NCBI GenBank assembly: GCA_014607495.2
Contig: CP053161.1
Location: 1,798,001 to 1,862,000 of the forward strand
Origin: Carposina sasakii
Lineage: Eukaryota; Arthropoda; Insecta; Lepidoptera; Carposinidae
DNA length: 64,000 bases
Reading direction: 5' to 3'
Shown: piece after piece, positions 12,179 to 63,467 of the stretch
How the letters are laid out: every line of letters starts with the position of its first letter
Position numbering within the stretch: the stretch's first letter is position 1
Translations under genes and position numbers: made by a program
Notes under the pieces: generated by a model
The model's input: the letters and a program-made list of their open reading frames with translations, nothing else
Databases searched by the model: none
What the model was told of the DNA's origin: nothing

Positions 12179-15100
12179 CAACCGGCTAACTGAGGGACTC
12201 GCGAGCTTGATCCGCGCAGGGGGGCACCCGCGGGCGGCGTCCTCTGCTGTGCGCCCTGCCCCTACTACTGACGGATCAAGACACTCTGCTCGACCAGACC
12301 TCTAGTTGTATAAGACGAGCTCTTATCTCTTCTTCAGTTTCATTTGTATTCCATAACGTCAGAGGTGTGGTTTTTACGTTCATACCAAATTTAGCATAAT
12401 GGTTTTTATTATTATCAACATTCCAGGTTTATTGTTTATTGTTCGGGATATAATTTATATTTTTTTTCTCCAAATCTAATATGTTTATTTAAAATTATTC
12501 TTCATTTTATTGTGTAATATAAGATTTATTTACAAGTAACTTATTATAGTGGTACAGTGTAACTCTTTGTTTTTACAAGACCGATGTATACAACTGTGAG
12601 GATTTGTTATGAATATAGAGTATTACCAGAAATTAAACATTTTAGGATATAAATCTCATTCGAATAAGCTAAAAACCAAAGGTGCCCTTCATAGAAAGAT
12701 TACGTTTTGTTAAATAATATTTCAAGTTGAATGATTTTAAATGAAGTTGTATGTAATAATTACTATACTTTTGTTTTAGCCTCGATAATGTTAGCGTATT
12801 TAAATAAATTTCATGACTATTTCAAATTATATTTACCTAAATCTTTCTTAGTAATTTTTATAATGTTCATCACTCGTTAAAGCGCTGGCACTCTAGTGTT
12901 GGTCCCTAGAGATCCTCCCGGTACGGAGTCAGGTGGGGCTCGAGCTCGCGCCCGCCCTCGGCCGGCCCTGGCCGCCTCAGTGCAGTGCTGAACACTCCTC
13001 TCGCGTCGCATCTCCGTGTTCTACGTCACACTATCGTCTCCCCAATGTTTCTTGTGCCTTGAATTTTTAATGAAATTTTGTTATATCTATTCTCTTCGAC
13101 TCTTACATGCATCATTTTGATTGTCTTTCGGATCTTGATGCGATGCGACTCGAGTTTTGTTCACATTTGTTGCGAGAATTTAGTCTTGGCCTTATGAGAA
13201 TTAAATAAATTAAATATAATCATTTATATAATTGAATAGTAATTAATTAGTTGGCAGCGAGCCGACGCTGAATAGTGAACAATATTCTACTATCTGCATG
13301 CTTCGACGAGCTTTTTGGTAATAATCTAATTTAATATTTAGTAGTTACTTTTTATTGTGTAATCGTTAGGTCAATACTATAAAATTAGATAAGGGTATTT
13401 ATTGTAGACAATCAGCATAGTTACAATAATATATAATTATGAAAGTTATTCTTACATAATAATGAAACAGTGTAATGAACTTTAAATTAACTGATGTGTT
13501 AGGATTAATCAAAGGAAAATTTAATATATTTTTTATTTTTAGCTAGTTGACTATCGCATACAGGAATAATACTTAGTTACCTTCGATTGTAAACCGAGGT
13601 GACGCGCAAAGTACACATCAGTGCGAGATAGCAATAAACCAAAAATGAAATCTTAATGTTATTATAGGTATATAGTGACGTATTCTGCTGATGTAAACAT
13701 GTAAAAATTATACAAAAAAAAAGTAAAAAAAAATCCCTGCTTAGGCTATTATAATAAGGTTTTGGATATTTGGGTTAAATCTTGACGTGGCAGAGTTCGG
13801 AGTATTCCGGCAATAGAGATTCCGCATGTGAATTCTTATGAAAATCTCTTAGTCAATATTTAATAGAAATTTCGTCAATTTTTGACATAGCAAAATTTTA
13901 TACGTTGTTTATAGTGATTTATATGTAACATTCACAATGTACCGAACATCTCGTGGTGTATAGACCAAAGATAAAGGATTATACATAATATTAATACTTA
14001 CCTCAGACCGTACCAAACTTGTATTTTGTAGACACATTTCAACAAGATTCGGGTTCGTACTTTGTGGAATGCCTAACATCCGTCGATAGGAACTACGCTG
14101 AGGCTAAGAGGCTGTAGTACGGGTGACACCTAGATTAGGCATCAATCATTACTATTTTCCTTGTTACCTATCTATCTTAATATACTTTGTTAAAAATGTT
14201 CGATAATTTTAAAACCAATTTTATGTGAACAATTCGTAATAAGTTCTTATTCCGTGATATGTTACTATTAACGACTAAAAGTTCTGATTTTCCTGTATAT
14301 TCATATTCATTGTCGGTTTAATAATTAAGCTAAGTCAATGTTTACTTATTTATTTGGATATATTATGCTAATTCGTAGATAAGTAATTGTGTAATATTGA
14401 AGTAGTGATCTCCCATACTTCGGCGAGCGGCGTCCCCAAACACAGACTAACGTATACAACGAAAACTTTAATATTTTTCGTTACTGTTGTGACTGTGGGG
14501 CCATTTCGACGACTACCGCGATCAGTAATTGTTAAATGCTCTCTGATTTGGTCGCCTTCCTTTTATACGGGTACTGGTTTCTGAAACCGTCGAAATGTCT
14601 TAAAACTTTTGTTTTTCGTGCTCTTTATCCGCACGCCATTTTGTGATCCGTTGCGTGAGACAAGATGGCGGATGTAGTGCGGTGTCTTGGGGACGCCTTC
14701 GCTGCCATGATTCCGTCCAACAACCGTAGATAGCGAGTAAGAGACGTCCAGTGGCTGCGGACACGGCTACGTCACCTTTTGCGGGACTACTCGATACATA
14801 TCATCGTGTAATATTAATGTGTAATTAGAGGTAAAGAGCGGTTTCATAGAGACGTTTATTCTGTATTCTCGTCTACTACTTTAATGCAATCGGCTACGTG
14901 TCACGCTAAATTCAATTTTGATTACGCTTTTGCAACTATACCTGTCATATTTGTCGGAATTTCAATATTTGCTTCGGTTTGTTTAGCTGTTCAAACGTTT
15001 TAAATTATGAGAAGCAATGAGATGAATATTTTCTTAACGTTTACTGTGAAATCGGGTAGATTGCGTTCGGCTGGGCGGTAGGAAGGCGCGTGACAGTGGC

Positions 15101-32523: not shown

Positions 32524-32742
32524 TAGGGTGTAACATACATTAAGCAAAATGCTATAAGAATAACTCATTATGGAGAACCTATTCCCAAAATTTAAGAAAA
32601 GAAATTATGTGCTTATTTTTTTAAATTTATAGAAACTTGCCTAAATTGTTTCTCAAATTTTGCGGATAGTTTCTCTATAGTGAACTATATATCTAGGTAC
32701 ATAGCATTTCGCTTAACAAACCCCTTCTGTTATAATATCCTG
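32524..32742. mobile_element. MITE family A, diverged copy
   Basis: Begins AGGGTGTAACATACATTAAG and ends with the inverted arm ATAGCATTTCGCTTAACAAA ... ATATCCTG. The arms pair around an AT-rich centre. Confidence 0.75.
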
Positions 32743-37978: not shown

Positions 37979-38075
37979 GTCATTAATAAAGTTGTAAAGA
38001 GCAAACACTCGGTGCAAGTAATTACATTTTTACATAACCTCAAAGTGAATAACCTCAAAGTTCGACGCCGGTAAA

Positions 38076-38696
38076 ATGGATGTTGGTGGCCTTAAAATGA
38101 ATGTGGAGAGGTTTGATGGCAATAATTTCCGCCAATGGAAGTTCCAAATCATGTGTGCATTAAGGGCGAAAGGAATCGATCTGTCTGTATCGAAACCAAC
38201 TGATGGTAACACAGCAACCGCATGGCTCAAAAATGACGGCATGGCCATGTTCATCATCACATCTGCAATGGACTACAGACAGATAGCACTTATTGAGAAT
38301 TGCGACAGTGCCAAGAAAATTATGGAAAAACTTGAGTCAATATATGAACAGAAGTCAGAATTCAATAAAATGTTAGTACATGAAAGATTCTATCAATACA
38401 AGATGAGCCCATCTGACAGCATAGCGCAACATATATCTAAAGTAGAAAGCTTAGCGCAACAGCTTAAAGATAATGGTGAGCAAATCAGTGAGACTGCGAT
38501 CATTACAAAGATTATCAGTACATTACCTTCCAAGTATCGGTCTGTGCGCCAAGCCTGGATGTCGCTTGACTCTGCTCAACAAACTATACATAATCTCACT
38601 GCTCGCTTGATGGATGAAGAAGCCAGTTTAACTTCAGAAGAGCAAAATGAAGTAGCACTAGCGGCTGCTCAAGAAAAAGCCGAAAGAAAGCAATAA
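38076..38696 (+). pseudogene. Copia gag
   Basis: 206 codons starting MDVGGLKMNVERFDGNNF, with the FRQWKFQI and YRSVRQAWMSL stretches typical of Copia gag (UBN2-type) proteins. It forms the particle that packages the element's RNA. It ends at a TAA (38694-38696) followed by two more in-frame stops before the zinc knuckle, which the Copia family normally carries in the same frame. The open gag looks intact; the junction is damaged. Confidence 0.9.
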
Positions 38697-38723
38697 TAAT
38701 TCTGAAATACACGTCATCGTTTT

Positions 38724-38948
38724 GTGTGCTACAATTGTAATAAGCGTGGTCATTTTGCCAGGGACTGCCGTGCTAAGAAATCTAGTCGAAGACGTCAAGA
38801 GCAAAACAATATGTTGGCATTCCATGTAGATGATGCATACTTTACCTCTGAAACTAATGATGATGTGTGGTTATTAGACAGTGGAGCATCTGTACACATG
38901 ACTTACAGAAAAGATTTTTTCTTGAATATAAAGAAATTTTTCAGATGA
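38724..38948 (+). pseudogene. Copia zinc knuckle and protease segment
   Basis: CYNCNKRGHFARDC is a CX2CX4HX4C nucleic-acid-binding knuckle. WLLDSGASVHMT is the aspartic protease active site (DSG). The frame then stops at 38946 and the following segment is in another frame, so the protease is not read through to integrase. Confidence 0.92.
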
Positions 38949-38992
38949 AAATAAAAGACAAGTGAAGTTGGGAAATCAACAAAACCTGAAGT

Positions 38993-40030
38993 TTGTGGTG
39001 TAGGTACAGTGCTCATAAGAAGTGTATAAATGGACAGTGGGAGAACAATATTCTAAAAGAAGTTATCTATGTGCCTGAACTATGTAGAAATTTATTTTCT
39101 GAAGGTGCTATTATGCGTTTAGGCTATGTAATAATTAAAAGAAATACTACTGCTTTAATCTACAAGGACAGTAAAGTAGTTTTGAGTGCAACACAAACAC
39201 CAAATAATTTGTATCATATGAATTTTAAAACAATTATTAGTGCTAGCTGTAATGTGGTGCAAACACCTGACAGTTTAAAAACATGGCATGAAAGACTTGG
39301 ACACTTGAATATAAAAGAAGTGAAGAATATGATTAAAAGTGGACTTATTCAGTGTAAAAATTGTGAAGATGAACAGTTTGTGTGTGAAGCGTGCATGTAT
39401 GGAAAGCAAACTCGTCTTCAGTTCCATACTTCACAACGGGGTGTGATGAGCCCTGGAGATCTGGTCTACAGCGATGTGTGTGGACCTATGAGTGAGTCTT
39501 CAATACAAGGTATGAAGTATTTTGTCCTTTTTAAAGATGGTGCTTCAAGTTATTTACATGTATATTTAATGAAACACAAAAGTGAAGTATTGGATCACTT
39601 TAAGTGTTACAATGCTATAATACAGAATCAGTTTGGACATAATGTGCGTACTTTACATACAGATAATGGCACAGAGTATGTAAACAATAATTTTAAAGAG
39701 TTTTTAACTCGAAATGGAATAAAACATGAATGCACTGCCCCCTATACACCTCAGCAGAATGGTCGGGCAGAACGAGAGTTACGTACAATAGTTGAGAGTG
39801 CGCGTTCCATGCTTTATGGTCGTAATTTGCCTTTATCACTATGGGCAGAAGCAGTGAACTGTGCAGTCTACTTACAGAACAGAACAACCTCCAGTCAAAC
39901 TCCAAGTAAGACACCATATGAAATCTGGACTGGTGAGAAACCTGACTTAAAAAATTTAAGAGTGTTTGGTTCATGTGGATATGTCCATGTTCCTGATGTA
40001 TGCCGAACAAAACCTTCAGAAGAAAAGTAA
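38993..40030 (+). pseudogene. Copia integrase
   Basis: Contains the GAG-pre-integrase/HHCC zinc region (WHERLGHLN ... CKNCEDEQFVCEAC) and the DDE core: SDVCGPM, TDNGTEYVNN and PQQNGRAERE. Further Copia signatures are WAEAVNCAVYLQNR and LRVFGSCGYVHVP. The frame closes at 40028-40030 within an AAAAGTAACAAG stretch; the continuing sequence (MILVGYDNHNYRMYDH) is in the next frame. Confidence 0.94.
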
Positions 40031-40432
40031 CAAGATGATTCTTGTGGGCTATGATAATCACAATTATAGAATGTATGACCATAGTACAAATAAAATTAAA
40101 ATATCAAGAGATGTTTTCTTTGACGAAATTATATTCCTGTCACAAAGAATATGACAGAATTTGAAGTCACTGAATCTATACAAGAAACCCCTATTCCATC
40201 GATATCTCAGACCGAGCCAATTGATATTACAAGTGAAGCTACAAGTGAAGACACAAGTGAACGAGAGTGATGATTTATATGAACCATCTCAAGAAATTTT
40301 AGAGGATGTTGAACCATCAAATATTAATTTGAGACCAAGGAATAATAGAAATTTTCAAGCATTTCTTGTGGAATATGTTTCCATCCACTTATGAGGATGC
40401 AATAAAGAGTCCCAGATGCTAGAAAATGGAAG
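40031..40432 (+). pseudogene. Copia integrase C-terminus and linker, frameshifted
   Basis: After the break, KMILVGYDNHNYRMYD and KISRDVFFDE are the integrase-RT linker. A second open piece (40161-40394) has the expected Glu/Ser-rich spacer and RPRNNRNFQAFLV. At least two frame changes occur here. Confidence 0.8.
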
Positions 40433-41089
40433 ATGGCAATAGAAGAAGAATTAAGAGCTCATGAGGAAAATAAAACCTGGACAATTATAGATAAAACTAA
40501 TAAGACACCTATAACAACAAAATGGGTCTTTACAATAAAGAAAAATAAAGAAGGAAAAATTGAAAGATACAAAGCAAGATTGTGTGCTCGTGGTTTTTCA
40601 CAAATAAAAAATGTTGATTATAATGAAACTTTTGCACCAACTACTAGATTTGACTCAATCAGAATTTTACTTAGTTTGGCTGCTAAGTATAACTATGAAG
40701 TTGTTCAATTTGATATAAAGACAGCTTTTCTGTATGGGGAGCTTGAAGAAGAAATTATTATGGAAGTACCTAAAGGTGTAGATGTTGAAAATGGAAAAGT
40801 GTGCAAACTCAACAAATCCCTATATGGACTCAAACAGGCTCCACGCTGTTGGAATATGAAATTCACTCAATTTTTAAAGTCATATGGGTTTATACAATTA
40901 GAATCTGATCATTGTGTATTTAGGAGCTATTTCAACAATATGAGAGTATTATTGATATTGTATGTAGATGATGGTCTAATTTTTGCATCAAACAAAGATG
41001 TCTTGAAGTTGGTTATAGATGCACTTAAAACTAATTTTAATGTTAAAGTCTTAGATCTGAATTGTTTTTGTTGGATTAGAAATACATAA
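40433..41089 (+). pseudogene. Copia reverse transcriptase
   Basis: KWVFTIKKNKEGKIERYKAR, then FAPTTRFDSIRILLS, VQFDIKTAFLYGELEEEI, LNKSLYGLKQAPRCW and the catalytic LYVDDG motif (YVDD at residues 177-180). These are the conserved Copia RT blocks in order. The frame ends at 41087 just after DLNCFCWI, where the family would continue into the LGLEI-type block. Confidence 0.95.
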
Positions 41090-51746: not shown

Positions 51747-54088
51747 TTAGGCACTGTGCGACAGAAATAAGTGATGGGGTAATTTATATCGATTATATTT
51801 ATTGATATATGGGAGATTGTGTTTACGGGTTTTTCCGATGTTTTTTATAGATTTATTTTTATTTGTAGAATTTTTGTGTAGATAGAATTTTTCCGATAAT
51901 TTATAAACGTAAATATCAATGGTAGGTAAGCCTATTTGAAGGTGCAGCTTTTGAAGATTTGTTCGGAAGGGTGTATTGTATGTGTATTTAAGGGCTTTGT
52001 TTTGCAAGGCTTGGAGTTTCTTGAAGTTAGTTTTGCATGCTTGAAGTTAGTTTTGCATGCTCCATACGGGGCAGGCATAAGTAATGCATGGACGGACCAG
52101 TGTGCAGTATGGTGCGGCTACTAAGACAGGATCGTCTTCTAAGCAGAACACTTAAAGCGCTTAGAGCCTTGGTGCCCTTTAAGGTAAGGTTAGTCGTGTT
52201 ATCTGTCCAATTTAGTTGTTTATCTAGTATTACGCCTAGGTACTTAACCGAGCGGCTCCAAGGTATACCGTGTCCATCCATTTTCAATATGCGAGAGAAC
52301 TTTCGTTTTCTCGTAAAAAGGATTGCTTCTGTTTTAGTGGCGTTTATTTTCAACTACCAGCTGGCAAAATACTCTAGGAGCTGGTCAATAGCGAGCTGGA
52401 GACGGTCGATCACCAAGTCAATATCAGTAGATGATGTAAAGCACGCGGTGTCATCCGCGAAGCAGGCCAAATTTGTGCGCGGTTGGATTGGAATGTCGTT
52501 TAAGTATATAAGAAAAAGGTACGGTCCCAAAATAGAGCCCTGCGGGACGCCAGCGGGCATGGGTTTTGAGGATGATTTTATATTATTTATATAAACATGA
52601 AAATTTCGATGTAAGAGAAACATACCAGACGATTCATTTAGATTTAATTTGTGTGACACAGTCTTAACAACTCGAGCCAATTGTAGGACGGTTGAATGAT
52701 CTTGTCTGAAGCCAAACTGTTCGTCGATTAAGAGATGTTGTGAAACACGAAGCATGCGAATATAGATAATTTTTTCAAATAGTTTACCGAGACATGGCAA
52801 AAGACTTATTGGACGGTATGAATAAGGATCTGAGGAATCTTTGCCCGGTTTGTGGATTGGGATGACCTTTGCTGTTTTCCAGGGAGTCGGAAAGTAATTA
52901 AGTAATAATCAAGCATTGAATAAAACAATATACTTTTGCGGGAGGTTTTTGATAAGAATGTTTGATATTTGATCAGGACCTGGGGCTTTACGAGACTTTA
53001 GTTGTACTATGCATTTTTTAACTTCCGATGGACGTACCAGTAGCACTGAGTCATTTTGGAAGATGTCATTTAGTGTTGAATGGGAGGCCTCAACTTTAGA
53101 TGCATTATCACTGGTCCAGTTGTGCGTAAGCAGCATGTTATGTAGGAAGGCGTTTGCCAAAACATCACATTATTGTTGTTGGGTGGAAGTCAGGGAACCT
53201 GTTTCTGTTTTGAGAGCTGGGAAGGATGGACTTGGATTACTACGTAGACTTTTTACCAAGCGCCAAAGGTCAGTTAGGGTTGTCAACTCTATTCAGTTTT
53301 TGGTTCCATATTTTACTGTTGTGTTCTTCGATAGCAAAGTGCACTTTCCGTTGCAGAAAGTTTACCTTAGAACGTAGTGTTTTATGCGTACTTATATCCG
53401 GTTCCTCTGCCGCGAACCTTCGTAAGCGATTTTTATTCCGAATCATTCTTTTAATAGAACGTGATAAATTAGAGGATGACCACGGATGCAATGTAGTTAT
53501 AGGGATACTGTGCTCTCTGCTCTGGAGTATTTTATTTTGAATGATTTTGAAGGTTATACACCGTGCTATCAATGTCAGTTGAGGAGACAAGCGTGTTAGG
53601 TGAGAGTGATATTTGGCTGTTTAAGTAAGAACGATAACTGCCCCAATTGGCCTTAGTATAATTAAATTTTTTAATTGGGCTACGAAGGAGTTTGCTAGTG
53701 AACTCGACAAAATCAGGAAAGTGGTTAGAGGAAAGTGCACGTACGGTAGCTATTACATTAGGTGGACAGAAATTTTTGGCTAGGAGTATGTCGGTAATGG
53801 AGGGTTTGTATTCGGCACGGTAATGTACGAGTGTAAGGGACGTCGGAGCATGGATGACAAATTCATGATTAAGTCCATGTTCAAAAAGTCGCTTGCCGTG
53901 CTGGTTACAAGGACCCGGCGACCATAATGAATGTTTGGCATTTAAATCACCTAAGAGTAAAACCTTGTCACCTGAGGACAAGAGTGAATCAAAGTCATCT
54001 ACAACTAATGGGAGATTTGGGGACTGGTATATTGAATAAACAAGAACTTTGCTGTTAGTTATTCTTAGCGAGATACCTATGGCCTCAA
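51747..54088 (-). mobile_element. Jockey-clade LINE ORF2, 5'-truncated and frameshifted
   Basis: In minus-strand order: partial endonuclease (VLLLGDLNAKHSLW, then SNHFPDFVEF), a linker with RKAPGPDQISNILIK, RT blocks EQFGFRQDHSTVLQLARVV and PAGVPQGSILGPYLFLIYLN, catalytic CFADDTACF, then NATKTEAILFTRK, KYLGVILDKQLNW and a C-terminal stretch. The FADD core is intact, but the ORF is split over at least six frames, so this copy is dead. The 5' end is cut within the endonuclease near 54088. Confidence 0.93.
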
Positions 54089-55150
54089 GAGAAAGTTAGA
54101 TGATACTCATACCAACGAACCTTTCCATTGAATCATTGGATTGGATAAAGTTTTACATCAACTTTACAGTGCCATTAATCTAGGGAGCAGTGCATAAATA
54201 CTAAACACGTACCATCACTTTTGGACGTAGTCGGGTAAGCCGGTGAGTAACGGTTATGGCGGCCGAAGAGGCTTTCCGTTGCTGATCTACCAATATAGAT
54301 TATATGTACATAAAAACCAAACATCGATTTCAAAATGGAGTAGGCAGTATTAAAAAACATATATTTACAGTGTAGGTTTAATGGTATGATCAGAATTCGG
54401 TATAAGTTTATGCCAGGGTGGACGGAGTTAGTTTTAAACCGAACTGTGTGGACTCAAAAGGCAGCAGCAATGGCAGGCAGGACACCACCATTACTAGGTA
54501 CATAAAAAATAGATTATCTAAGCAAAGTCCCAGATAAAAGAATGTTTTATTTTATATCTTGCCCTAAGCTTTTTTGTCAGACTCTACCTTAAGTTACAAT
54601 ATATTGCCTACGAATATAAGCGAATCACAAAACATATCATTTCGAAGTTACAGCCCCTAGTAATTATTTCATCGTTACTTCGAAAGAAAATAACTAAGAA
54701 CCAAACATCGCTGGTCCTTATTAAGAAAGTTTTTCCTTATAACAAGATTACGTACGCCAGATGTGTTAGATGTTAGGGGCCTAAGTTGTAAGCGATGAGC
54801 GGTTTATGACCTATAGCGTTAGGTATTAGAAATCAACATTGGTTTGCAAATCGCAAAAATTTAAGTAATCTGAAATCAGTAAAGAAATAGCAAAAATTTT
54901 ATCTACGCTTTGATCTGGACTGTGCAATGTTGTATAAATCCAAAAATATTTTGTAGCTTTGTTCACAGTCTGCCAGTCAGGGCGGATTTAGATTTAGACC
55001 AGACGAACATTTGTGTACCTACCTTCTGTGGGTAGAGATTTCATCACAGCACATACCTATTTAGTCAAATATGCCCTTTGTGGCCTCTTAACCCAATAAA
55101 AAAGTCTGCGCCCATACATAATATTAGGTTTCCTCAAAGGTTATACTCGT
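54089..55150. other. gene-free DNA
   Basis: No recognised gene. A short minus frame at 54175-54360 could be LINE-related but has no motif. Confidence 0.45.
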
Positions 55151-55154
55151 TATA

Positions 55155-55414
55155 CAGGGTGTAACAAAAAGGGTATGTTAAGCGAAAAGCTATGTAAATA
55201 GCCCACTATAGAAAACCTATCCACAAAATTTGAGACCTGAAATCACATGTTTATTTTTCCCGATAGTATGGAGAATTTTTAAATATCTCAGAAATTTTCA
55301 TACAATCTTGAAAAATTAAAATGTGATTTCGAGTCTCAAATTTTGTAGATAGGTTCTCTATAGTGGGCTATTTACATAGCTTTTCGCTTAACATACCCTT
55401 TTTGTTACAACCTG
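55155..55414. mobile_element. MITE family A, best copy
   Basis: CAGGGTGTAACAAAAAGGGT ... ACAACCTG with inverted arms of about 105 bp; the arms share GTATGTTAAGCGAAAAGCTA and CACTATAG. TATA flanks both sides (51-54 and 15-18 of the 55100/55400 blocks), a probable target duplication. Non-coding. Confidence 0.9.
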
Positions 55415-57239
55415 TATACTCGTATAGGCAGAATTGTGCAAATGACATACCCACTTTTCACCAGAGTTCAAGTACTCGTAAGTAAGCCATTCTTAAATTG
55501 AGAAGCAGGTAATTACAGTTAGGTACTTAGGACCTTTACAGAATATAATAGGAACGTGATCCCGAATCTTCTTTCGGTTTTTATTACAAAGTTCTCTCAT
55601 CTAGACAGTCTGATAAGATTATATACCGTTTACATACCTAATCGCCTCAACATTATTTAGCCACACTTTTAAAAATATCTAATAGAAAAACTCTACGATT
55701 TCATATACAAGTTTATATAACATTTATAGGTAATTATAAATATAAAGCCAAATATCATAAAAGTAACGTTACTTTCCCTCACCTGCTTATCCTGTGCTCC
55801 TTACTACCTCACACTTCCCAGGGTTATAGGTAAAGTAACATTATTTCTCCAATGAATCATTAAAGGTCGTCATCGGCAAGTTTGCTCAAATGTAAGCCTT
55901 TATTTTCGCGCGTTCGTTATGTCGCGTGATGAAATCTAACCGCTATTCTTGTGTTACGATAACTGACATCGATAAAACGTTACATTGTCTAAACACCCTG
56001 GATATTATTACATTTTGTTTTATTTTGTAATCCAAGCAAACAAACTGTCGTTGGCAAAAATTGTTTGTGCTCAACATTTTGTGTTAAAAATGGAACAATT
56101 AGTGTATGTTTTATTAAAAAGCGTGAAAAAACTCATAAGCGCCTTGAACTGAAAGCCAAAAGGCCAACACGTCCTGGAATTTATCTTATTCAAAAATATA
56201 AGTACATAGTTAGAAAAGTAAATCTTTTACGCGGATTTTAAAATCTGAACAATAGGTATGCTATAAAAAAAATTGTGAACCCCTATCAAAAATATAAGAG
56301 CCGCCTCTGGTCGTTGGGTTACTTGCGTACTGGCGTTGGGTTACTTGCGTACTGACGTTGGGTTTATTTCCAATGATTTTAGGTGTTATGTATTACGTTG
56401 CAAACACTTTTTTTGTCTTTATGCTTATCAAAATTAAGTACTTACCTATACAGATATATCTAATCTAAGCAAATAAGTACTGCCCCAGTACAGATAACGA
56501 GATATCGATTATTGCGTCCGTGACTGAAATATTATTATGATTCAATGTTTTCCCAGAAAAAACAGTCAAGCTTGTCTCGGACATGGTACATAGTGGGTTT
56601 GGCCAATGACCTTGCACCACGCCTTGGGTAGCTTAGCAAAATGAAACTCTAAGAACACGATCAATTGCGGGAAATACAATATTATTTAAGGGGCAGAAAA
56701 TTAATAATTCGTTTTTCAGTCTAAAATTTCGTAGACAGGCATTTCCCTTTAAATACCCTTTCTGTTATACTCTGTATAAGTGACCTATATTTCAGACCTA
56801 ATACGTAGGTTTATCGTTTGGAAAAAATATTTCCACGTGAGTCACGTCACAGTAAAACAGGGGTGGAGTTTTGGTTAGACCCAAGATCTACTTGTGCTGT
56901 TCACTGATGATACTCTGTACGATCTACTCGTACCAATTACATCTTGAAATATTAAATGAAACAGTAGGTATAGCATATTATGTAAAACGTGCATTGCCAT
57001 GATCGACTGGATTACTAGTTCACTATATACTCGTAGTATATACAAAGGCTGAAGAGACTGTATATTGTTTCTTTGACAATAAATGGACTTCATAAACTGA
57101 AAAACATGAAAGTATGAACGCAGTGCGCAATTGGCAAAATTGATCTTAATTCCAAATCTGAATTGTGAGATTCGTTAATGGAAAAATTCGGTTCTTAGAC
57201 CGTATGACAGAACTTTATGTACCTGCGAGTATAATGTAA
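55415..57239. other. gene-free AT-rich DNA
   Basis: No gene. A TGGGTTACTTGCGTACTG short tandem occurs near 56315-56355. A piece at 56690-56790 looks like a family A MITE end. Confidence 0.45.
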
Positions 57240-58857: not shown

Positions 58858-59360
58858 CCTTCGGATTATAAATGCGAAAGTAACTCTGTCTATCTGTGTG
58901 TTACGCAATCACGCCTAAACTACTGAACCGATTTAAATGAAATTTGGTACAGAGATAGTCTAGAGCCTGTGAAAGGATATAGGCTACTTTTTAATGCAAA
59001 AAAGAGATGTAAGGGGTTGAAATAGTGGATGAAAGTTTGTATGGAAATTACGTCATTTTTTAAGCTAGAAGCTTAAAACTTATTTTTTAGGCTTTTTATT
59101 AGATATAAATAAATAAGACATTCAAAGTTTGTAAAAGAATACCATAAAGGGGCTAAAAATAGGGGGTGAAAAATTTTGTGTGATGGATGACATCGGAAAA
59201 AAGCTTAGGGTTGAGAAAATAAAAATATAGAACAGAACAATACAGAGAATTAAGTAAGAAACTTGCCAAGCACTGCGCGCCATATTCAAAAAAGGGATGT
59301 AAGGGGTTGAAATAGGGGATGAAAGTTTGTATAGAAATTACGTCATTTTTTAAAGTTTTG
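58858..59360 (+). repeat. dispersed repeat family E, left part, with internal duplication
   Basis: TTATAAATGCGAAAGTAACT, CTGAACCGATTTAAATGAAA and TTTGGTACAGAGATAG form the known-looking start of a ubiquitous insect repeat. An internal block (GATGTAAGGGGTTGAAATAG ... ACGTCATTTTTTA) occurs twice, at about 59001-59060 and 59288-59352. Its usual right end appears only beyond the transposase-like gene at 63046-63106. Confidence 0.75.
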
Positions 59361-59472
59361 TCTCACTACAAATATGCGAGTACAACTTCATAATGATTAT
59401 CAAGCAGGACAATATGCAACAAATAGCTCTTTTAAAAATCGTACTAAAAACGTCGCATGGGTAATTCCATAT

Positions 59473-59873
59473 GTGACTGACTCTACATTTGACACAATTT
59501 GCGTTTTGTTTTACCTTTTATTACGATTAGTACTATGTTTTTAGTTTCAATTTAAACATGTCTTTGTTGCAGCTTCAACAATTATCGTATAGAGACAAAA
59601 TGGCAACCAATGATATTGTGAAATATCATTTATTTAGTAAAATATAAACGTGACTGACACTACATGCAAAAGGAAGTCTTTCGAGAGGGTTTTGAAACAT
59701 CAATAATCTTCCTCTGTACTGGCGTAATAACTTTAATTTGTGTTTTTATCGAAAGTGCATGAAACAAACTATTATAAAATGGTGAAATAAAAGCTTTAAG
59801 TTATTTAAAAAAAAATATATTAGTAAAATAAATTGTGACTGACACTACAGGCCAAAACGTGACCGACACTACA
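59473..59873 (+). repeat. GTGACYGACWCTACA motif cluster, downstream side (4 copies)
   Basis: Four copies on the plus strand at 59473-59487, 59650-59664, 59835-59849 and 59859-59873. Steps between starts are 177, 185 and 24 bases. A diverged fifth (TCTCACTACA) may lie at 59370. They sit downstream of the transposase-like gene's stop codon. Function as a protein-binding site is inferred. Confidence 0.9.
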
Positions 59874-60159
59874 TTCACTTTTTATAGTGTAAAAGTCAGT
59901 ATTTTTACATGAAACCTTAGTATTCAAATCACAGCACATGAAAAAACAACTCTAAAATTATTTTAAAGAAAGACAGGTGTAATTAATGAACTCGTTAAAA
60001 TTCTATTTATGAACAAAAACACCACCTAAACGAAATCATTAATAATATGTTAGAAACCAACATTGAAACTAAAATAATTCAAAACAAAATCTTTTTGGAA
60101 ATAAGAAATATAAGTAATTAAAAAACTTAAACAATTTCTTTAACAAAGTATAAATTCTT
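59874..60159. other. 3' flank of the transposase-like gene
   Basis: AT-rich. No canonical AATAAA on the minus strand close to the stop. Nothing else seen. Confidence 0.5.
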
Positions 60160-62333
60160 TTAAGCCTTTTCAAAGACATCTAGACTCTTTGGAAACTTAT
60201 AGTAGACTCTATTGCCCTTAAGAATCAGACTAGGATTAGGTAATATCTCCAGTATGTCATCAAAAGACACATAAGATATATCTTCCTCATCAGCTTTAAA
60301 TAAAGAAGCATCGTTATTTGTTACTTTTAGGCTCATAAGTTTGACTTCGCCCTCTTCATCTACATCACTCTGGCAAATAGTGACGTAACGATACATCTGT
60401 CGTTTATTTTTTGTGGCAAACTGTGCCAGTACAAACACACCATTTCGGATGTTATTAGCAGTAAGTTCTAAACTACTGGGCCCAACGTCTAATATTGGAG
60501 CATTATTTTCTTTTTCGTCTGATGATTTATCAGGCATTAGAAGATCACTTTCATCATCGTCTGCCGATTCATCAGAAAACACTTCTTCATACGTTGTTTT
60601 TTGCAAGAGAGATAGTTGCAGGGCTTTGACGTAATTAAACTTATTTACGTAAAATTTGTGCATTTTTTTAATGTTCTTAATAACCATAGCTTTCTCAAAA
60701 ACCATCTTTAATGCTAGGTCTTCATGGCATTTACTGAAGTCCTTATCCGTCATTACAATTATTTGTACCTTTGAGTTTTTGTTTACAGCTTCAGAAAAAT
60801 CGCGTGCATTTGACACAATTTTCTCTCTCCTCATCACTGAATTTCGTACCTGACGTTTGAGAGCACCTCCGATTCCGTCTACTGGCCCTTTCCCATGAGA
60901 CGTTGCGAAAAAAATCCACATAATTTTCAAATTATGACGTTTTTCCATCATTGGAAGAGAGTTAGCAATAAATCGGTTTTTGAATTGTGAAGCTGGACCA
61001 TCTGACCATATGCGTACTTCTTTTACATCTTCTGGTATTTCTGTTAATATTCTATCAATATATGCTATTACCGTATCTTTATTGTGGTGAAGATTATCCG
61101 ATGCTATCGCAATTGCATGCTGTTTTTGATGATACCACAAAGACACAGTAAATAAAGAAACTTGCGGCTGCACCCAATGATACGATTGAATTTCATCCTG
61201 CGAAACACAGGTATAATTTTCTGCAAAATCCACTTGCAGAAGCGCAAAGTTGCAGTCTGAGCTCATACAATCAATGCGATCTTGATTGTAACGCTGTGCT
61301 TGTTCCCTTTTTATGTAACTGTGCTCCTTAAACTGTGGAGTCATTTTCGAAATATGTTCACAAAGCATCGACACTGTATCTTTTAGTAAAACCTTTCTAA
61401 GCCGTCCATTTTCCTCTTTCCATTCATACCAGCTAACTTCCCTATCTTTAATGGAACAAGTAGCTTTGTCTAATTTAGATTGCATCATAGTTTTACATTT
61501 TATACATTTATCATTCCAACAGGATGTTGTTGGTGCTTCACAAAGAGCAGTTTTTATCAAAATGTTTTGGTCGTAACCAGGGATGTCATTGCAATTTTTG
61601 GACAGCGCGTTTACAGCTAATATGTAATTTTCATGATACTTGCAAAGGCAAACATTTTCAGGTGTTTGGCAGCTCAGGAGAACATGTTTTGGTCGTAGTT
61701 CAGCAAATTTACTTTTACCTAAAATCGTTCCGAATTCATCACAAAACAGAGCATATGTTTCTAGAACATTGCTGTACAAATGCCTGTTTTGCATTTTAAC
61801 TTTTTTTCCATCTTCGAGATGGACTATTGTTGTGTCTTTAATGCCAGGATTTTGGCGACTAATATCATCACGGAGATAAAAAAAATTGACCTTTTCAACT
61901 GTGTCAGCAGAGATTGTTTTCTTCGGTATTTTGTATTTAGGCGTTACTATTTCAGGAGTTATTTGTCTTGCTAATGTATGCACAACTGCTCTACACTTCG
62001 ATGGACTGAATGGCAGATTCCGTTTGACTTTTGCGACCGCTTTTCCATAAGAGCTTTTTGAGGCAAATGCCTTAGTAGGAGTCTCATCTCTGGCAGGTGT
62101 ATCAGTGGATTCTAACATTAGTTTTTTTTCTTTAATCTTTCTTCTGTATCTTCTCATATCTTCGGATTTTTTTTCACGTAAAGCTTTAAGCATATCAAGC
62201 GATGCTGTTTGTTTTATCAAACGCCGTTGGCGTTTTCTGTTCTCAGATTCCTTTTTTTAAATTCTTTAAATAATCCTTTAGCTTTCAGATTCTCTCTCTG
62301 CTTGCGCTTCCTTTCTGCAGCTGTTTTCGCCAT
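60160..62333 (-). CDS. transposase-like protein with DDE-type Asp motifs, apparent frameshift near N-terminus
   Basis: The main open frame (62220 down to 60160) has 686 codons but no ATG at its head. The true start is probably the ATG at 62333-62331, directly after an acceptor (CTCATAG). That frame gives a basic start (MAKTAAERKRKQRENLK) and meets the long frame only if the seven-A run at 62252-62258 is one base longer. In the numbering of the 686-codon frame: a basic region 20-35; a Cys/His zone 184-241 (LLSCQTPENVCLCKYHEN, CWNDKCIKC); VDFAENY with Asp331; IWSDGPASQFKNRF with Asp407; TSHGKGPVDGIGGALKR with Asp448; an acidic Ser-rich linker 549-572; and a C-terminal domain with VFVLAQFATKNKRQMYRYV. 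An RNase H-like transposase fold is likely. I cannot name the superfamily (KDZ-like is one thought). It may be mobile or domesticated. Confidence 0.78.
62252..62258 (-). other. homopolymer run where the reading frame breaks
   Basis: Seven A on the coding strand. Upstream coding from the ATG at 62333 continues past it only to a TGA after about 39 codons, while the long frame is open across it. A one-base length error or mutation here explains both. Confidence 0.7.
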
Positions 62334-62740
62334 CTATGAGAAAAAAAAACAAACAAAAAGCTACATTTAATTATGATACAGGCTGTGACTGACTCTACCT
62401 ACGACGTGACCGACTCTACAACGTGACTGACACTACAAAAATGATTCTTATAGAGTTTAGGCATTATAAAAAAGATAATAAATTTTTAACGTCGGCATCA
62501 TTTGACTTATATCGTCAAGTAGGAAAATACTTATTTTCATGATAATTAAGTAATATTGCTGTAGTTAAAGCGAAATGTAATGTCTATTCTGTGACCGACA
62601 CTACAACTTCACACTGTAAACTTATAAACCTAATATCTCTTTAAAAATTCAATTTCTATGAATTACGGACTCTTTATCGATATGTCATCATTTGAACAGT
62701 CAGTATGTAAAAAAATATAACAATAATTCAAAAGACTTAC
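62334..62740 (-). other. 5' UTR intron of the transposase-like gene
   Basis: Donor CACG/GTAAGT (GT = 62740-62739) and acceptor with a long pyrimidine run ending CTCATAG next to the ATG. 407 bases. It contains all four upstream-side copies of the GTGACYGACWCTACA motif. Confidence 0.7.
62385..62605 (+). repeat. GTGACYGACWCTACA motif cluster, promoter side (4 copies)
   Basis: Copies at 62385-62399 (last base C), 62406-62420, 62423-62437 and 62591-62605, all on the plus strand. Steps are 21, 17 and 168 bases, a mirror image of the other cluster. Confidence 0.92.
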
Positions 62741-62800
62741 CGTGAAAATTAATTAAAACTTCACCACAAAAAATCACTATCAGCTGAGCTCACGACACCA
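62741..62800 (-). other. candidate leader exon of the transposase-like gene
   Basis: Ends at the strong GTAAGT donor. The minus strand has CTCAGCTG (initiator-like) near 62785. No ATG in the short leader as drawn. The start site is inferred. Confidence 0.4.
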
Positions 62801-62815
62801 TCTCGTAAATGACAG

Positions 62816-62884
62816 TGTTGCCAGAAAAATAATATCAAAAAATTGTTGCCATTATAAAAACTTAAAAGTAATATAATGTTGCCA
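62816..62884 (+). promoter_or_regulatory. three TGTTGCCA copies near the inferred promoter
   Basis: TGTTGCCA at 62816-62823, 62844-62851 and 62877-62884 (TGGCAACA on the gene's strand), just upstream of the leader exon. Similar GGCAACACTGTCA-type sequence is common at insect promoters. A role here is inferred. Confidence 0.5.
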
Positions 62885-63045
62885 CCATACTTAAGTATTT
62901 TTACTACCAAAATCAGATATTAATTTTTTTCATTTATGGTAGACTTATGCGTGGAATTGCCCGCATATAAAAATGTACTTAAATAAGCTTAATAACTTAT
63001 TTTAATGTACATGTGTTTTACTTGCAAAATAATTAGCCTAAAAAA

Positions 63046-63106
63046 ATTTAAAATGCCTCCGAAAGTCACTATTCCACGCGGACGAAGTCGCGGGACAGCT
63101 AGGGAT
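63046..63106 (+). repeat. dispersed repeat family E, right end
   Basis: CCGAAAGTCACTATTCCACG, then CGGACGAAGTCGCGGGACAG and CTAG. This is the usual right terminus of the family whose left part is at 58858-59360. Confidence 0.65.
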
Positions 63107-63203
63107 TCGCGGGCAACTTAGGGATTTATGTTCGAAACAATTTGAAATCATATACATATATACATAATAGTCACGCCCATTATCCCCCAAAGTGGTGTAT
63201 ATA

Positions 63204-63467
63204 CAGGTGTAACAAAAGGAGTATGTTAACCGAAAAGCTATAAATATAACCCACTATAAAGAACCTATCACCAAAATTTTAGACTAAAAATCACATATTT
63301 ATTTGTCCAGATAGTATGGAGAACACCTAACCCACTCAGGAATATTATGAACATACAATCTTGAAAAATAAACATGCGATTACTAGTCTAAAAATTTCGG
63401 GATATGTTATCTATAGTGGGTTGTTTTTATAGTATTTCGCTTACCATACCCTTTTTGTTACATCCTG
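63204..63467. mobile_element. MITE family A, copy with TATA flanks
   Basis: CAGGTGTAACAAAAGGAGTA ... TTGTTACATCCTG with inverted arms. Flanked by GTATATA and TATATA. Collinear with 55155-55414. Confidence 0.88.

Follow-up and report, generated by a model that had tools for sequence, protein, structure and literature searches.

The locus comprises a long open reading frame on the minus strand and eight plus-strand copies of a 15-letter word, GTGACYGACWCTACA, four on each side of the 698-codon frame. Frame and sites lie inside an apparent DNA transposon of 3504 bp (59459-62962), bounded by 11-bp inverted termini, GGGYAATTCCA. All coordinates refer to the window, by which we mean the whole 64-kb stretch of DNA that was analysed. 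The first-pass annotation had reported eight one-way copies of the word around the gene, and all of them were found, on the plus strand and four to each side. They are listed here from left to right together with the gene and the element ends; sites are numbered in gene orientation, and L004 denotes the one relative of the element, described below.

59455..59458, no strand: possible left target-site duplication, GCAT; the same four bases follow the right terminus
59459..59469, plus strand: left (gene-downstream) inverted terminus, GGGTAATTCCA, one base off both L004 ends
59473..59487, plus strand: site 8, the terminal one, GTGACTGACTCTACA, 14 bp inside the end; its L004 counterpart lies 13 bp inside its own end
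59650..59664, plus strand: site 7, GTGACTGACACTACA, L004 counterpart by position
59835..59849, plus strand: site 6, GTGACTGACACTACA, L004 counterpart by position
59859..59873, plus strand: site 5, GTGACCGACACTACA, L004 counterpart by position
60160..62256, minus strand: main frame, open for 698 codons between stops, for a transposase-like protein with a relative in L004 (30% identity, E 9e-76)
62257..62333, minus strand: likely start codon (62333-62331) and first codons, off-frame relative to the main frame; resembles the basic L004 start by eye
62385..62399, plus strand: site 4, GTGACTGACTCTACC, last base deviating, L004 counterpart by position
62406..62420, plus strand: site 3, GTGACCGACTCTACA, L004 counterpart by position
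62423..62437, plus strand: site 2, GTGACTGACACTACA, L004 counterpart by position, inverted in L004
62591..62605, plus strand: site 1, GTGACCGACACTACA, 357 bp inside the right end; start position 358, as against 364 in L004
62938..62962, minus strand: end block on the right, upstream of the gene, GGGCAATTCCACGCATAAGTCTACC, which contains the 11-bp terminus at 62952-62962; 20 of 25 bases as in L004
62963..62966, no strand: possible right target-site duplication, GCAT, paired with the left GCAT

The word, which reads TGTAGWGTCRGTCAC in gene orientation, fits seven of the eight copies exactly, while the copy at 62385 deviates at its last base (C). No ninth match with up to two mismatches was found anywhere in the 64 kb, in agreement with the earlier claim that the motif is absent from the rest of the window. 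Allowing three mismatches gave 10 matches in the 64 kb, the two extra ones lying at 12892 (minus strand) and 40166 with three mismatches each; 100 dinucleotide shuffles at the same threshold gave a mean of 2.84 and at most 9, in a control that is lenient in that the pattern was derived from the same sequence. A weight matrix derived from these copies gave them 24.6-27.1 bits, and the next best site of the window 12.0. Mean pairwise identity was 0.91 within the word, as compared to 0.23 and 0.35 in the 10 flanking bases on either side (seven of the eight copies, the terminal one having too little flank). Two pairs of stretches are exceptions to this word-only identity, namely 59634-59671 and 59820-59856 (87% over 38 columns), and 62384-62420 and 59834-59873, with two sites each (80% over 40 columns). 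The start-to-start gaps are 177, 185 and 24 on the left and 21, 17 and 168 on the right. The mirror symmetry noted in the first pass thus holds loosely for these gaps but does not extend to the ends, which are not mirror images, as the outermost sites lie 14 bp (left) and 357 bp (right) from the inferred element ends.

Profile searches with the encoded protein gave no significant match in Pfam (best E 0.026, below its cut-off), PHROG (best E 0.64) or NCBIfam (best E 0.14, below its cut-off), and a sequence search of the PDB gave none at E<=1. The relative is encoded by L004 (JAAEPJ010000558.1), a contig of 4028 bp that is deposited as part of a bacterial MAG, in a frame open over 705 codons, 690 of them from the first ATG. 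In tblastn, the two proteins align over 576 columns; the best Pfam match of the L004 protein had an E of 0.043, below its cut-off. D343, D419 and D460 (numbered in the 698-residue frame) are identical in both proteins and lie within VDF.EN, SDGP.SQFK and HGKG..DG.GG, respectively. Their order, D, D, D, is that of the DDD/E (RNase H-type) transposases, and we infer that they are the putative catalytic residues. The predicted order of strands and helices around them is compatible with an RNase H fold, in models with a mean pLDDT of only 34 and 51, and fold searches returned no transposase among the matches listed. Eight cysteines and histidines, C203, C205, H208, C222, C239, C246, C251 and C254, are also identical in the two proteins. 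We take the HGKG..DG.GG motif and a similar overall layout to recur among 'uncharacterized proteins' of invertebrates and fish, which form a large, unnamed family that may already have a Repbase name.

The frame of the likely start codon runs on, in this assembly, into stops inside the main frame. The gene is likely interrupted near its start here, by a mutation or an assembly slip, and the window copy may be inactive, its first codons being in another frame.

L004 was retrieved with HGKG..DG.GG..K, the motif near the putative third acidic residue, searched as a degenerate DNA pattern against bacterial and archaeal contigs. Eight contigs matched and one, L004, was a true relative; the remaining seven gave no alignment better than E 0.93. 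A first scan of bacterial and archaeal genome contigs had yielded no relative, and viral contigs yielded none by peptide patterns, the HGKG pattern, the paired word, the flank repeat or the end block. The transposon that L004 carries is of eukaryote type, and our guess is that the MAG is probably contaminated.

The element boundaries were sought by a log-odds search of the flanks for paired inverted termini and target-site duplications, in which GGGTAATTCCA and GGGCAATTCCA ranked first, equalled by 18 of 200 shuffles. By plain match count the window termini stay below the maxima of 100 shuffles, and they are not among the 25 longest of the 96 inverted repeats in the window. A GCAT/GCAT match arises by chance about once in 256 per pair of ends; beside the L004 termini there is no target-site duplication (flanks AAAT and TTCT in gene orientation), and the one in the window may be a chance match, L004 having none. 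On their own, the window termini are only suggestive. Agreement with L004 firms up the proposed boundaries, because L004 carries GGGCAATTCCA at both ends of a stretch of 3536 bp, the window having GGGTAATTCCA and GGGCAATTCCA at the ends of 3504 bp. The upstream ends are identical at 20 of their first 25 bases, and the last 50 bases of the downstream ends, which include the terminal site, show 36 identities in 53 columns.

No second copy of the element was found within the window by blastn. The left flank contains a 70-bp direct repeat (58994-59063 and 59284-59353, 94% identical) within an apparently older repeat, and no other window copy of the flanking repeat spans the junction as an empty insertion site would. 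The right flank resembles a repeat tail, near 63073-63125, of a kind that we presume to be typical of moths and butterflies. The heptamer GTTGCCA occurs at 62817, 62845 and 62878 near the right end and, inverted, at 59601 near the left end. It was rejected as a second motif, as L004 has no matching cluster and a single copy in its coding part, and it is either private to the window element or due to chance.

The L004 gene is likewise flanked by eight sites, four to each side, but the word that they repeat, with at most two mismatches, is a different one, TGTAYGTCCRACAC. The expectation of the first-pass annotation that motif clusters would accompany the gene is thus borne out for the sites, at matching places in one relative, and not for the word. 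In 100 shuffles of L004, TGTAYGTCCRACAC had a mean of 0.05 matches and at most 1, the pattern being derived from L004 itself. By eye, TGTAYGTCCRACAC and TGTAGWGTCRGTCAC have TGTA..GTC..CAC in common. The copies within an element are nearly uniform (mean pairwise identity 0.89 for the L004 word, beside 0.91 for the window word; seven of the eight copies each), as would be expected if a self-encoded protein reads the word.

Measured from the upstream terminus, the sites start at 358, 526, 543 and 564 in the window and at 364, 520 (inverted), 541 and 555 in L004; from the downstream terminus, they start at 414, 390, 205 and 28 in the window and at 404, 383, 195 and 26 in L004. Site by site, the distances from the element ends therefore differ by at most 10 bp. 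Uniform random placement reproduced this agreement in 11 of a million draws upstream (P ~1.1e-5) and in 16 downstream (P ~1.6e-5), with the tolerance set to the largest observed deviation, 9 bp upstream and 10 bp downstream. The shared layout is read from one relative, L004. In L004, seven sites share the orientation of the gene and the eighth has the opposite one, so that 15 of the 16 sites are alike in orientation relative to the gene (P 5e-4 under random orientation, taking the two words as homologous, though sites within one element need not be independent). The orientation of each single site is probably dispensable, because one L004 site is inverted.

To compare the DNA between the sites, the non-coding DNA of both elements was aligned after the sites and end blocks had been removed. 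Upstream, the observed alignment score was equalled by 10 of 200 shuffles in local and 5 of 200 in global alignment; downstream, by 48 and 19 of 200, respectively. The intervening DNA thus appears largely replaced, and the site positions appear to have been maintained, not simply to have escaped loss so far. Our main argument that the spacing is under selection is that it stayed while the inter-site DNA was largely replaced. The faint similarity upstream (5 of 200 shuffles) means that part of the spacing may be plain inheritance.

An operator in a promoter is expected to lie at a constant distance from that promoter, and a transposition site at a constant distance from the element end. The upstream sites lie 272, 104, 87 and 66 bp from the ATG in the window and 398, 242, 221 and 207 bp in L004, so that their distances to the ATG are off by 126-141 bp, as compared to at most 9 bp for their distances to the terminus. 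Downstream, the distances to the stop codon and to the terminus are both nearly preserved, the non-coding tails measuring 701 and 702 bp. Because the distance to the terminus is kept and that to the ATG is not, the comparison argues, without proving it, that the upstream sites serve the element end and not a promoter.

Taken together, the two sequences make it quite probable that the 3.5 kb at 59459-62962 constitute a DNA transposon whose ends are asymmetric, and that the eight words are putative binding sites for its own transposase-like protein, re-specified jointly with that protein. The suggestion made in the first pass that the sites form part of a transposon-like element gains support from L004. 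In such an element, the encoded protein would bind the word, perhaps via the conserved cysteine/histidine cluster, and each end, with its four sites, would take up several copies of the transposase. Cutting and joining at the 11-bp GGG..CCC termini would be carried out by the acidic triad D343, D419 and D460. With one-way sites at 14 and 357 bp from the termini, the two ends would be chemically different and could be paired as unlike partners; the protein could tell them apart because the sites are one-way and lie at unequal distances from the termini. Protein and sites would change their specificity jointly.

A host protein, such as a transcription factor or an insulator protein, might instead bind the sites for expression or insulation rather than transposition. 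Arrays bound by host proteins have a precedent in the Su(Hw) sites of the gypsy retroelement, one-way site clusters next to a gene are typical of them, and the start codon of the window gene is preceded, at 66-104 bp, by three sites. However, host factors usually keep their specificity, whereas all eight places carry a different word in L004; the site distances track the element ends and not the ATG; and the downstream side of the gene has four sites as well, the outermost of which is 13-14 bp away from the element end in the window and in L004 alike. We therefore consider a host-protein array unlikely.

The first-pass annotation had also offered a domesticated, self-regulated gene, no longer mobile, whose product would control its expression by binding the word in the gene's promoter. 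The long open frame of 698 codons, the sites directly upstream of the start codon and the lack of a second copy in the blastn search of the window would all suit such a gene. That alternative is nevertheless weakened by the inverted termini common to the window element and L004, by the four downstream sites and by upstream sites that hold their distance to the terminus while the ATG distance varies between elements. The early frame break, moreover, is explained no less well by a mobile copy that is decaying or was mis-assembled. Domestication thus appears rather improbable. An origin of the words as a satellite or by chance clustering, with no link to the gene, is hardly credible, given the absence of other matches with up to two mismatches at the scale of the 64-kb window and the positional counterparts in L004.

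hAT elements generate a target-site duplication of 8 bp, whereas the window shows an exact duplication of 4 bp only and L004 none. A further difference from hAT is that the C/DxxH signature is lacking here: the window protein does not match it anywhere from D419 to D460, nor, by eye, does the L004 protein, presuming that D460 is the last catalytic residue. According to PMC9587614 and PMC10045372, this signature marks a group of five superfamilies, among them Kolobok. PMC10368747 describes the ends of the hAT element Hermes as asymmetric, with STR2-STR7 antisense in the LE and STR1-STR5 sense in the RE, and its sites as bound by the zinc-finger part of the transposase; on the assumption that both ends are read tip inward, the Hermes STRs run in one direction along the element. 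The apparent transposon resembles Hermes in having short sites inside short inverted termini, differently arranged at each end, but the Hermes site is AAGT-based and occurs 17 and 14 times per end, as compared to 15 bases and four sites per end here. One-way runs of subterminal sites are reported for Hermes (PMC10368747) and not new as such, and the 'new type of end architecture' proposed in the first pass is too strong a term.

According to PMC3143072, Herves of Anopheles likewise has one subterminal motif common to both ends, bound asymmetrically; it is, however, a hAT element, and its motif has 8 bases and lies in the first 100 bp at either end. Kolobok, as described in PMC9587614, shares 5'-RR..YY-3' termini, a DDD/E transposase and, if the window GCAT is real, a 4-bp duplication, but its duplication is TTAA, whereas the window has GCAT and L004 no duplication. 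Two further superfamilies were rejected on their published definitions: piggyBac requires TTAA and CC..GG termini (PMC10045372, PMC9587614), as against GG..CC here with GCAT or no duplication, and IS3EU has TA..TA termini and usually a 6-bp duplication (PMC10045372), as against GG..CC termini here. In the literature search, no title or abstract start among the matches listed described the element, and the match that combined GGGCAATTCC with a transposon concerned Agrobacterium and is unrelated.

More tentatively, the two elements could belong to an undescribed superfamily of animal DNA transposons with four fixed-position sites per end, all running one way through the element, in which the divergence of families would change the specificity of all eight along with that of the transposase. 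Were this so, the layout would be more conserved than the sequence of the sites. As to how a transposase and its many end sites change specificity jointly, two elements with the same protein family, termini and site positions but different words make the protein-site code directly testable. The one-way, asymmetric layout is also a natural case for studying how transposon ends are told apart. Possibly the layout is paced by the nucleosome repeat, the outer gaps being 156-188 bp in the two elements.

Other repeats are present in the window. A palindromic repeat at 63208-63462 consists of two 111-nt arms, 81% complementary and 33 nt apart; related pieces occur at 55151-55418, 32540-32732 and elsewhere, and it is probably a small non-autonomous element. 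By eye, the gag, integrase and reverse transcriptase parts of what resembles a Copia-type retrotransposon are distributed among several frames at 38049-41089, and minus-strand frames at 52354-54095 resemble the reverse transcriptase and endonuclease of a LINE-type element.
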